Positions 150 to 33,734 of a stretch of 47,510 nt of DNA are shown here, piece by piece. Source of the DNA: Methanobrevibacter sp. GTDB lineage: Archaea; Methanobacteriota; Methanobacteria; Methanobacteriales; Methanobacteriaceae. The notes below the pieces were generated by a model. The model was not told where the DNA came from. It was given only the letters and a program-made list of their open reading frames with translations, and searched no databases. Within the stretch, counting starts at the first letter, position 1; the number at the start of each line of letters is the position of its first letter. Both the position numbers and the translations under genes were made by a program. Location: contig JALFJX010000001.1 of assembly GCA_022775905.1 (NCBI GenBank), positions 1 to 47,510 of the forward strand, written 5' to 3'.

Positions 150-281
150 GAACTTGTTCGATGCAAGGCGAACATTATATATACTACAAAAATCAATGTA
201 TTAATAGAAGTTCGTAGCAATACGAACGTATTATTATACATGACAAAACATACATTATTGTATGTGAGAGCACTCGCTCTC
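150..281 (+). promoter_or_regulatory. nrdD promoter and leader with TTCG-N9-GAA boxes
   Basis: A TATA-like element TTATATATA lies at 175-183. It is bracketed by two perfect inverted repeats of the same type: GTTCG-N8-CGAAC at 156-173, and TTCGTA-N4-TACGAA at 211-226. Each contains a 16-base TTCG-N9-GAA core. A further GAAC-TT-GTTC repeat is at 150-159. Downstream, in what would be the leader, are ACATAC-N6-GTATGT (248-265) and the hairpin GAGAGC-N4-GCTCTC (266-281). The first box sits where the BRE would be and the second at the expected transcription start, which is a typical repressor arrangement. The same core occurs upstream of the F420H2 oxidase TATA box at 31971-31986, so MsvR is the proposed ligand. 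The motif is seen; the ligand is inferred. Confidence 0.6.
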
Positions 282-30359: not shown

Positions 30360-31064
30360 ATGGCTAAAAAAGGAAAATTGATTGGAATTGGTGTTGGACC
30401 GGGAGATACTGAATTATTAACATTAAAAGCTGCAAAAGTATTGAAAACAGTCCCTGTTGTTTTTTCACCAAAATCCTCAAAAGAAAAAGAAAGTATCGCA
30501 TTATCAATTGTAAGACCTGTTCTTGAAGAAAGAGACGATTACAAAAAAGTCATGATTGTGGAACCTATCTTCCCTATGATTGAAGATAAAAAAGAACTCG
30601 AAAGAATATGGGACAGTGCATCTGAACTCGTTGCTCAATACTTAAACACCGGAAGAGATGTTGCATTCATTACCCTTGGAGACACATCCATATTCAGTAC
30701 ATACTCATACTTACAAAGAAGATTAATTGATGAATTCGAAGTTGAAACAATTCCAGGAATTACTTCATTTACCGCATGTGCTGCGGCTAGAAATGAAGCT
30801 TTAGTTGAACAAAATGATATCTTGACAATTGTTCCAAAAATAGATAAAAGAATTGAACAAGTTTTAGACTACAGTGATTCAATTGTTCTTATGAAAGCTT
30901 CAAGAAACACAACAAAACTTGAATTAAAAATAAAAAACGATAAAAGAGAAAAAGAAATTTACTCAGTACAAAACTGTACTCGTGAAAATGAAAAAATAAT
31001 TGAAGGATTTTCTCACGAAAAGCCTTATCTTACAACATCCATTATAAAATTTAAAGATGATTAG
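30360..31064 (+). CDS. cbiL: Cobalt-factor II C20-methyltransferase
   Basis: A 234-residue SAM-dependent methylase of the anaerobic cobalamin pathway, methylating C-20 of cobalt-factor II. The tetrapyrrole methylase fold is shown by IGVGPGDTELLTLKAAKVL near residues 10-28, FITLGDTSIFSTYSYL near 103-118 and the ETIPGITSFTACAA loop near 130-143. It supplies corrinoid for methyltransferases of methanogenesis. Its stop codon (31062-31064) overlaps by two bases that of convergent msvR (31061-31063). No other cobalamin gene is near. Confidence 0.93.
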   Translation: MAKKGKLIGIGVGPGDTELLTLKAAKVLKTVPVVFSPKSSKEKESIALSIVRPVLEERDDYKKVMIVEPIFPMIEDKKELERIWDSASELVAQYLNTGRDVAFITLGDTSIFSTYSYLQRRLIDEFEVETIPGITSFTACAAARNEALVEQNDILTIVPKIDKRIEQVLDYSDSIVLMKASRNTTKLELKIKNDKREKEIYSVQNCTRENEKIIEGFSHEKPYLTTSIIKFKDD

Positions 31065-31828
31065 TAAGTTTTTGCGCTTTGAGGTTCAACCTCAAAGACA
31101 CATTTCCCATCACCCATTGTAAAACATTGTGTTTCAATAACACTAACAGGCAATTTAAAGAATTCTGTGAATAAACCTTCCAGAATACCTGTATCCAAGA
31201 AACAAGCTGGTTTTCCTGTTTTTGGAAGCAATTCACATTCAAAACAATCATAGGCAGTTATCTTAATTATCTGGCCTATTTCATAAGTTAATCTACCTAA
31301 ACCTTTTTTCTGCCAGAATTCAGCTAAATTACCCATAAATATATCTAAATCTTCATCGTATAATTTATAAAAGATTGATTTACCTATTTGATTACCTGTT
31401 GATTTTAAAATAGGATCAATATTAATTCCTTCCTGAATAAGCATTGCTTTTAAAGTATGGAACAATAATGTTGAAAACTGTCCATCACCTTCAACAATAT
31501 TTTTTATCAAGTAATTAGCATGTGTCTCTTCAAGTTCTTTTGGTTCAGAAATATTTACAGAACCAAGGAATTTAGAATTTAAATAGAATATTTTTTTTCT
31601 ATTGTCAACAGGGTGCATTCTATATGATATAATTCCATTTTCTCTTAAATTTTTCAAATGCACTGAAACTGTAGATTTTGATTTACCAGTATTAGTAACT
31701 ATTTCATCAAACTCCATGTCTCTATCTCTGAGCATTTCTAAAATAGTGAGTTTTACTGGACTTTTAACTACATTGACACGCAAGTCGGTTAAATCTGAAA
31801 ATATTTGTATTGGTTTTTGTTCGCTCAT
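31061..31828 (-). CDS. msvR: Methanogen-specific V4R redox regulator MsvR
   Basis: A 255-residue transcription regulator. An ArsR-type winged helix-turn-helix covers residues 18-85 (SPVKLTILEMLRDRD ... KSKSTVSVHLKNLRENGII). The C-terminal V4R domain (about 150-250) holds five cysteines: C195 and C198 (FECEL), C209, C235 and C243. In Methanothermobacter, MsvR is known to bind its own and the divergent fpaA promoter in a redox-dependent way through such cysteines. The divergent fpaA arrangement is the same here. The start has a GGGGGAGAT site. Its boxes may also lie before nrdD. Confidence 0.9.
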   Translation of the reverse strand: MSEQKPIQIFSDLTDLRVNVVKSPVKLTILEMLRDRDMEFDEIVTNTGKSKSTVSVHLKNLRENGIISYRMHPVDNRKKIFYLNSKFLGSVNISEPKELEETHANYLIKNIVEGDGQFSTLLFHTLKAMLIQEGINIDPILKSTGNQIGKSIFYKLYDEDLDIFMGNLAEFWQKKGLGRLTYEIGQIIKITAYDCFECELLPKTGKPACFLDTGILEGLFTEFFKLPVSVIETQCFTMGDGKCVFEVEPQSAKTY

Positions 31829-31970
31829 TAATCTCCCCCATGTGTATAATTATATATAGTTACTATTAGTTAATAAATATACCCATTTGATAAAATTTAA
31901 TCAAAACTATAAAAAAATGTACTAAAATTAGACAAAAATTAGAAACAAAATAAAAATAAATCTCGAACTG

Positions 31971-32008
31971 TTCGCAATACTTAGAATAGTTTGGGTTAAC
32001 TATAAATA
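31971..32008 (+). promoter_or_regulatory. fpaA promoter with MsvR-type box
   Basis: A 16-base TTCGCAATACTTAGAA element (31971-31986) has the TTCG-N9-GAA form also found twice at nrdD. It overlaps a shorter perfect repeat CGAAC-T-GTTCG (31964-31974). A TATA box TATAAATA is at 32001-32008, 14 bases downstream of the box. The remaining 130 bases toward msvR are plain A/T-rich sequence, with a TATA-like tract for msvR at about 31845-31858. Confidence 0.6.
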
Positions 32009-32082
32009 ATATGGGTTTCAAAGTATAATTAACATCCGTAATGAAATTATGGATATACTACTTAAATAGGAGATTTATAAAA

Positions 32083-33309
32083 ATGAAAGCTAATGCTCAA
32101 AAAATAGCAGAAGGAGTATACTGGATCGGTGTACTCGACTGGGACTTAAGAACTTACCACGGATACACTTTAGACGGAACCACTTACAATGCATACATCG
32201 TATTTGGTGAAGATGAAGTAGCAATTATCGATAACGCATATCCTGGAAAAACCAAAGAAATGATGGCACGTATCGACGACGCTTTCGCACAAGAAGGAAG
32301 AGATGTCAAAGTTGACTACATCATTCAAAACCACGTTGAAAAAGACCACTCCGGAGTTTTAGTAGACTTACACAAAAGATTCCCAGAAGCACCTATTTAC
32401 TGTACCGAAATTGCAGTTAAAGGACTTTTAAAACACTACCCTGCACTTGAAGGTGCAGAATTCATCACCGTAGGAACCGGTGACTCTTTAGATGTCGGTG
32501 GAAGAACCTTAGCATTCTTAGATGCATTCTTATTACACTGGCCGGACAGTATGTTCACCTTACTCGCTGATGAAACTGGAATTTTATTCCCTAACGATGC
32601 ATTTGGTCAACACTTATGTTTCACCAAAAGATTCTCTGATGACATTCCAGAAAACGTATTAATGGATGCAGCACAAAAATTCTACGCAAACTTAATCACT
32701 CCACTTTCCAAATTAGTACTCAAAAAATTAAACGAAGTTGTTGAATTAGGTTTACTCGATTCCATTAAAATGATTGCACCATCCCACGGTCAAATCTGGA
32801 CTGACCCAATGCAAGTTATCGGAGCTTACCAAAACTGGGCTACCGGTGTATGTGAAGATAAAATCACTATTGTTTACGACACTATGCATTACTCTACCCA
32901 ACAAATGGCTCACGAAATTGCAGAAGGTGCTATCTCTGAAGGATACGATGTAGAAATCTTCTTCTTACACGAAGATGAAAGATCTGAAATCGTAAAAAGT
33001 ATTTTAACCAGTAAAGGAGTAGCTATCGGTGATCCTACCATCAACGATGTACCATACCCAAGTATTGGGGACATCATGTACTACTTAAAAGGACTCTTAT
33101 TTAACAGAACTGGTATTGAAAGAAAAGCTGTTACCTTCGGTTCCATGGGTGGAAGAGGAGGAGCTCCTGCAAAACTCGCTGAAGAATTAGGTAACTGCGG
33201 ATTCGATGTTGTAGACACCCAAGAAATCTACTTTGTACCAACTGCTGAAGAAGACACCGCAAGCTTTGACTTAGGTGTAAAATTAGCTAAAGCATGTAAA
33301 GAATTATAA
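32083..33309 (+). CDS. fpaA: F420H2:O2 oxidase (A-type flavoprotein FprA/FpaA)
   Basis: A 408-residue flavodiiron protein that reduces oxygen to water with electrons from coenzyme F420. The metallo-beta-lactamase-like domain has the diiron motif HVEKDHSG (His84, Glu86, Asp88), further ligands near HWPDSM and NDAFGQH, and PSHGQIW. The flavodoxin domain starts near residue 264 ([17 protein letters not shown]) and includes [10 protein letters not shown]. The frame opens at 32041, but the ATG at 32083 after TAGGAGAT fits the known N-terminus. It heads a two-gene operon under a TATA box at 32001. Confidence 0.96.
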
Positions 33310-33320
33310 GGTGATTTTTA

Positions 33321-33734
33321 ATGGTTAAATACGAACACAAAATTGGAATTACCAAAGGAACCCCTGTAGAAAAATTTGTTGCAGGAAACTTTGAAGGAGA
33401 AACCAACGAAGTAGGTATCTACTTAGCAATGTCCAGACAAGCTTCCAGAGAAGGTTACGGAGAATTAGCTGAAGTATTCAAAAGATTAGCATGGGAAGAA
33501 GCTGAACACGCTGCAAGATTCTGTGAAATGAACGGAATCATCAAAGACACCCTCAAAGAAAACATCGAATGGATGATGGGTGGAGAAAAAATGGCTAACG
33601 CAGAAAAAAGAGAAGCTTCCGAAAAAGCTCAAGAAGCAGGTATCGAAACTGCTGCTGATTTCTTCAGAGAAAGTTCCAAAGACGAAGGTCGTCACTACAA
33701 AATCTTAGAAGGAATCTTAGCTAGATATTTCTAA
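33321..33734 (+). CDS. Rubrerythrin-like ferritin-fold diiron protein
   Basis: A 137-residue four-helix rubrerythrin domain that detoxifies peroxide. Diiron ligands are visible in [22 protein letters not shown], the EKAQEAGIE region and the C-terminal [16 protein letters not shown]. The C-terminal rubredoxin domain of classic rubrerythrins is missing, so electrons must come from a separate donor. It is 11 bases after fpaA and ends at a strong terminator, matching the fpaA plus rubrerythrin-like pairing of the known MsvR-controlled operon. The separate rubredoxin gene is not next to it. Confidence 0.92.

Follow-up and report, generated by a model that had tools for sequence, protein, structure and literature searches.

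Which regulator recognises the pair of inverted repeats in front of nrdD in Methanobrevibacter, and what would its binding mean for the gene? The locus considered here belongs to a Methanobrevibacter-type genome of 1.83 Mb, one contig of which, 47,510 bp long, is called the window below. The nrdD gene (326–2644, + strand) encodes the anaerobic (class III) ribonucleoside-triphosphate reductase with an N-terminal ATP-cone (PF13597, 557 bits; PF03477, 45 bits; TIGR02487, 554 bits against a cut-off of 326). The original prediction for this DNA had picked out three 16-mers sharing TTCG-N9-GAA, two at nrdD (157–172 and 211–226) and one at fpaA (31971–31986), and had proposed that MsvR controls nrdD together with the oxygen-removal operon. 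All three 16-mers are present at these positions, and the identities of nrdD, msvR and fpaA were confirmed by Pfam and NCBIfam.

Architecture of the nrdD promoter region

The distal box, TTCGATGCAAGGCGAA (157–172, + strand; family consensus G-TTCGNNNNAAGACGAA-C), occurs in its exact form in 30 of 65 related promoters and is directly followed by a TATA element, TTATATATAC (175–184, + strand). The proximal box, TTCGTAGCAATACGAA (211–226, + strand; consensus (T)GTTCGTA-N4-TACGAAC(A)), likewise has a TATA element directly 3' of it, ATTATTATACA (230–240, + strand). As predicted, both are inverted repeats matching the published MsvR motif, which in its general form is TTCG-N7-9-CGAA (PMC3729527). 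The proximal box also fits exactly the strict form TTCGTA-N4-TACGAA, given for MsvR boxes 2 and 3 of M. thermautotrophicus in that paper (PMC3729527). The flanks of the proximal box are AT-rich, with roughly 20–25% GC in the 17 bp to its left and to its right.

The association of box and TATA element is conserved, as box-CAATTTATATAC and box-CAATAATTATAC; in well-conserved cases, CAAT(T/A)-TATA follows the box at once. The TATACA of the proximal element is invariant among 28 aligned sequences, 30 promoters keep TTTATATA at positions +20 to +27 relative to the distal box, and species with a single box retain one box-TATA unit. The simplest reading is that two tandem promoters precede nrdD, each with a putative operator over its BRE. 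The proximal box, which falls about 25–45 bp past the distal TATA element, near the predicted start of that promoter, probably covers both the BRE of the second promoter and, roughly, the predicted start of the first. Transcription is predicted to begin at roughly 205–212 and 258–266, with some 55 nt between the two starts. The boxes had originally been placed around a single TATA box, over the BRE and the start site. The overlap with BRE/TATA or the predicted transcription start, as expected of an MsvR site, is borne out, but the arrangement consists of two box-TATA units and not of one promoter.

Downstream of these elements, the nrdD leader contains a stem-loop, GAGAGC-ACTC-GCTCTC (265–284, + strand), which shows partial covariation and is a matter separate from the MsvR question. 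GAGAG/CTCTC is replaced by GATAG/CTATC in eight single-box relatives and by GGGAG/CTCCC in another locus (L009); there are only five pairs, two of them with changes on both sides. The leader in the window has a z-score of −3.3, relatives lie closer to the shuffle mean, and a comparison of the leader with Rfam gave no match.

Motif frequency and conservation

The shared pattern TTCG-N9-GAA matches all three 16-mers but is weak evidence, as the window contains 10 distinct sites, or 12 strand matches where 4.45 are expected, and several of the sites fall within genes' coding sequence. It was dropped as the working motif in favour of TTCG-N8-CGAA, which is the conserved and informative form. The latter occurs twice in the window, each time at nrdD, against 0.11 expected; none of 100 shuffles reached two, and shuffling of positions 1–325 never produced two boxes in 20,000 trials. 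Genome-wide pattern searches found four sites in 1.83 Mb, two of which are those at nrdD, against about four expected from the window rate. Four sites per genome is close to chance, so frequency by itself proves nothing, and the argument has to come from placement and conservation.

Conservation upstream of nrdD in relatives had been named beforehand as a test, and the boxes pass it clearly. Among 65 nrdD upstream regions from relatives, searched within 300 bp for exact TTCG-N8-CGAA, 44 contain at least one box and 30 contain two, with 0.16 expected from shuffles. The box-to-box distance is 54–60 bp in 28 of the 30 two-box promoters, with a mode of 55. In an anchored profile, the half-sites and the flanking G and C reach 97–100% identity while the centres vary; the inner TA/TA is kept in the proximal box and AAGACGAA in the distal box, and conservation is weak immediately before the proximal box. 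Inverted repeats arising by chance from the composition of AT-rich promoter DNA, with no regulatory meaning, would be in keeping with the loose pattern inside coding sequence and with the lack of genome-wide over-representation of TTCG-N8-CGAA. Retention of the box in relatives so far above expectation, with invariant arms beside variable centres, refutes this explanation for the two nrdD boxes and leaves it almost no probability.

The phylogenetic range of the arrangement is limited. Insect-associated lineages and related genera carry degenerate nrdD boxes, for example TTTGTATTAATACGAA, with the TATA element directly after. No box was found in Methanothermobacter-like nrdD promoters, so the link to nrdD is lineage-specific, and the arrangement is characteristic of the Methanobrevibacter lineage.

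The strict form TTCGTA-N4-TACGAA is present in 32 of 60 genomes of the genus, almost always once in each. Outside the window, 27 of 29 loci examined lie immediately upstream of nrdD; loci found later added one more at nrdD (L238) and one more exception (L239). Genome-wide specificity, which had also been named beforehand as a test, holds: the strict form is nearly always at nrdD. What sets TTCG-N8-CGAA apart is where it lies and that it is retained, not its count. Locus L238 is a two-box nrdD promoter (positions 1557 and 1612) with the TTCGTA left arm in both boxes (TTCGTATACTTACGAA and TTCGTATAACAACGAA, on the locus + strand), an observation which indicates that box arms can vary between two forms. 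The strict sites in genomes G050 and G027 (L236 and L239), which precede a CobZ-like gene and neighbour a zinc-ribbon gene, share no common theme and were set aside. A further perfect strict site, TTCGTACAAATACGAA, follows a TATA-like stretch on another contig (C9:24651–24666; L006:6652–6667), in the intergenic stretch where an acetyltransferase gene and the 3' end of gdhA converge. In the sense direction it is followed by no gene, and no gdhA-linked strict site was seen in relatives; it could be a chance occurrence or the promoter of an unannotated small RNA.

The msvR/fpaA locus

The window also contains the gene of the candidate binder. MsvR, a redox-sensing regulator with an ArsR-type HTH (HTH_5) and a V4R domain, is encoded at 31061–31828 on the − strand, 29 kb from nrdD (NF053755, 300.5 bits against a cut-off of 220). 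It is the sole gene above this cut-off in the genome, and all 60 genomes of the genus have a gene above it. Some of them carry a second or third paralogue of 220–264 bits (G037:C10:51659–52357, G055:C7, G056:C33 and others). The cysteines of MsvR align with those of the Methanothermobacter-like protein, and the HTH segment is conserved between the genera (GKSKSTVSVHLK versus GKSKSTVSKHLS).

Beyond msvR lies the oxygen-removal operon, with fpaA, encoding the F420H2 oxidase (flavodiiron protein; 32041–33309, + strand), and a rubrerythrin-like gene (33321–33734, + strand; PF02915, 55 bits). Because relatives align from about residue 13–15, the likely start of fpaA is the ATG at 32083 rather than that at 32041, the first in frame. 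A ribosome-binding site is found upstream of the ATG at 32083.

The Methanobrevibacter msvR promoter does not have the N8 arrangement but an everted element, ACGAAC-T-GTTCGT. In the window, this conserved half-site pair is CGAACTGTTCG (31964–31974, strand not assigned), which occurs nowhere else in the genome and recurs at msvR throughout the genus. The genus-wide motif is ACGAACTGTTCGT, represented here by CTCGAACTGTTCGCA, and its core CGAACNGTTCG occurs once in this genome, at msvR/fpaA; most additional CGAACNGTTCG sites in other genomes are not near msvR or fpaA. The everted element is often joined by GTTCGTATAC beyond a TATA-like stretch, and fpaA promoters also have TTCGTAT half-sites.

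The claim that the nrdD box recurs at fpaA is a misreading. The 16-mer TTCGCAATACTTAGAA (31971–31986, + strand) consists of a real left half-site, which is the right half-site TTCGCA of the everted element, and an unrelated downstream GAA. In that register, the match is a coincidence, and here chance does hold; the everted element shares only the half-site with the nrdD boxes. The proposal that MsvR controls nrdD along with the oxygen-removal operon thus keeps the motif match, the conservation and the presence of an MsvR gene, but loses the common box at fpaA.

MsvR as the candidate regulator of nrdD

Because the msvR promoter is everted in Methanobrevibacter, the case for linking MsvR to nrdD is built on the identity of the half-sites and on what other genera show. 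TTCGATGAYATACGAA is found between msvR and fpaA in seven Methanothermobacter-like genomes. A search of 45 Methanobacteriales genomes with TTCGAT-N3-ATACGAA gave 22 loci: seven at msvR/fpaA (genus g8, Methanothermobacter-like), three at nrdD (genus g4), eight at aksF and four elsewhere. The msvR/fpaA pattern of the Methanothermobacter-like genomes thereby reappears at nrdD of M. ruminantium-like genomes. In one genome of one genus (G086, L137), two TTCG-N8-CGAA boxes 54 bp apart surround the msvR/fpaA TATA box, in the layout and spacing of nrdD in the window. An independent k-mer enrichment singles out the half-site GTTCGTA at both kinds of promoter, with 42 of 44 nrdD promoters (1.6 expected) and 22 of 31 msvR promoters (0.5 expected).

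These results bear on the possibility that some other regulator recognising a TTCGTA half-site owns the boxes, such as another ArsR/V4R-type or winged-helix protein that senses, for example, nucleotides or growth, and that MsvR uses only the everted msvR/fpaA site. Such a division would account for the way in which, within Methanobrevibacter, the msvR/fpaA element departs in half-site orientation and spacing from the boxes at nrdD and aksF, and the genomes do encode related short HTH proteins (weak HTH-only matches). It is at odds with the TTCG-N8-CGAA boxes at msvR/fpaA itself in G086 and the Methanothermobacter-like genomes, and with the enrichment of the same 7-bp half-site at nrdD and msvR. 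NrdR (TIGR00244) is ruled out as the binder since its gene is absent: there is no match in this genome and none over the cut-off in 21 genomes, while control bacteria match. We regard a different regulator as unlikely. MsvR is the best candidate binder of the nrdD boxes; nrdD would be one more target of a regulator already known, within a familiar kind of system.

Two published observations qualify or extend this assignment. The motif alone is insufficient for binding by the M. acetivorans MsvR, which does not bind rpoK (PMC3729527). In M. ruminantium treated with lauric acid, nrdD rises (log2 +1.47) along with fprA2 (+3.58), fprA1 (+1.37) and rbr2 (+1.27) (PMC5816558), a response of 147 genes including prophage genes, so that the co-induction of nrdD may be indirect. 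Genome G080 probably represents this species, since its FprA copies (near 0.25 and 1.97 Mb) and nrdD (near 0.38 Mb) follow the order of mru_0131, mru_0241 and mru_1507, and its nrdD promoter has TTCGTATGATATCGAA ahead of the TATA element. The accessible literature, which largely leaves out subscription papers, yielded no link between MsvR and ribonucleotide reductase; novelty is therefore unproven.

Proposed mechanism

The nrdD boxes are probably operators of the redox-sensing MsvR at two tandem promoters, with reduced MsvR repressing transcription and oxidation releasing it. Reduced MsvR would occupy the BRE/TATA region of both promoters. As each box lies over the BRE, with a TATA element right behind it, bound MsvR should exclude TFB and TBP, the mode of action given for the M. 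thermautotrophicus protein (PMC3729527). At the proximal box it would, in addition, obstruct the place where transcription from the distal promoter starts. Oxidation of the V4R cysteines may then free the protein, by analogy with characterised MsvR proteins; that of M. acetivorans sits at its own promoter when reduced and leaves it on oxidation (PMC3729527). Exposure to an oxidant would thus raise nrdD transcription together with that of the F420H2 oxidase and rubrerythrin genes, and the additional transcript would serve to replace the glycyl-radical enzyme inactivated by oxygen.

The position of the boxes could also be read the other way. MsvR might activate nrdD by aiding TFB/TBP from just upstream of the BRE, with nrdD expression falling on oxidation; archaeal activators also sit directly upstream of BRE/TATA, and the nrdD boxes occupy such a position. 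This is improbable given that characterised MsvR proteins at BRE/TATA repress (PMC3729527), that the start region of the distal promoter lies under the proximal box, and that nrdD rises alongside fprA and rbr in M. ruminantium (PMC5816558). Under the favoured repression by reduced MsvR, Methanobrevibacter cells probably tie the synthesis of DNA precursors to their redox state.

The aksF box and a possible wider regulon

Another TTCG-N8-CGAA site of the genome (C6:22851–22866; L005:6852–6867) lies between a TATA element and the start codon of aksF (aksF2), the gene of homoisocitrate dehydrogenase of coenzyme B synthesis (NF040626, 592 bits against a cut-off of 540). The downstream partner of aksF2 is a gene for an AMP-forming acyl ligase. 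Of 30 genomes, 25 have an exact box at aksF, mostly TTCGATAGTATACGAA or TTCGATAACATACGAA; the other five mostly have degenerate forms. The aksF box hardly differs from the msvR/fpaA box of Methanothermobacter, to which it is closer than the nrdD boxes are. MsvR in Methanobrevibacter may therefore head a wider redox regulon spanning oxygen removal (fpaA/rbr), the supply of deoxyribonucleotides (nrdD) and the formation of the thiol coenzyme B (aksF), in which the N8 boxes moved from msvR/fpaA to metabolic genes and autoregulation shifted to the everted site, a scenario that we offer tentatively and hold at slightly less than even chances.

Relation to known systems and significance

The closest parallel is the msvR/fpaA region of M. 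thermautotrophicus, where boxes 2 and 3 (and 1) have the same TTCGTA-N4-TACGAA (TTCG-N8-CGAA) pattern, lie at BRE/TATA or the start site and are accompanied by an MsvR family regulator in the genome. By contrast, the target here would be nrdD and not the oxygen-removal operon, each of the two boxes is complete and has a TATA element to itself, and the msvR/fpaA site is rearranged into an everted pair. This suggests that the half-sites of one regulator have been re-ordered between genera. Boxes A and B at msvR of M. acetivorans share TTCG-N7-9-CGAA, the BRE-blocking position and AT-rich flanks with the nrdD boxes, but only autoregulation has been demonstrated there and the fpaA homologues are unbound, whereas the gene under control here would be a metabolic one. 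The bacterial NrdR–NrdR-box system, too, has 16-bp palindromes in pairs at the promoters of ribonucleotide reductase genes; its sequence is unrelated, the spacing here is 54–60 bp, no genome of the 21 has an NrdR gene over the cut-off, and the logic would be that of redox state and not of nucleotide level.

Few redox regulators have been described from methanogens. MsvR is one of them, and biochemical work on its targets has so far dealt with the msvR gene itself and the operon for oxygen removal. If the present reading is true, the dominant methanogens of gut and rumen would, by way of a conserved operator at an essential glycyl-radical ribonucleotide reductase, couple the sensing of oxygen to the supply of DNA precursors; nrdD, aksF, fpaA and msvR would form a defined set of testable targets through which the survival of strict anaerobes in the presence of oxygen may be approached.
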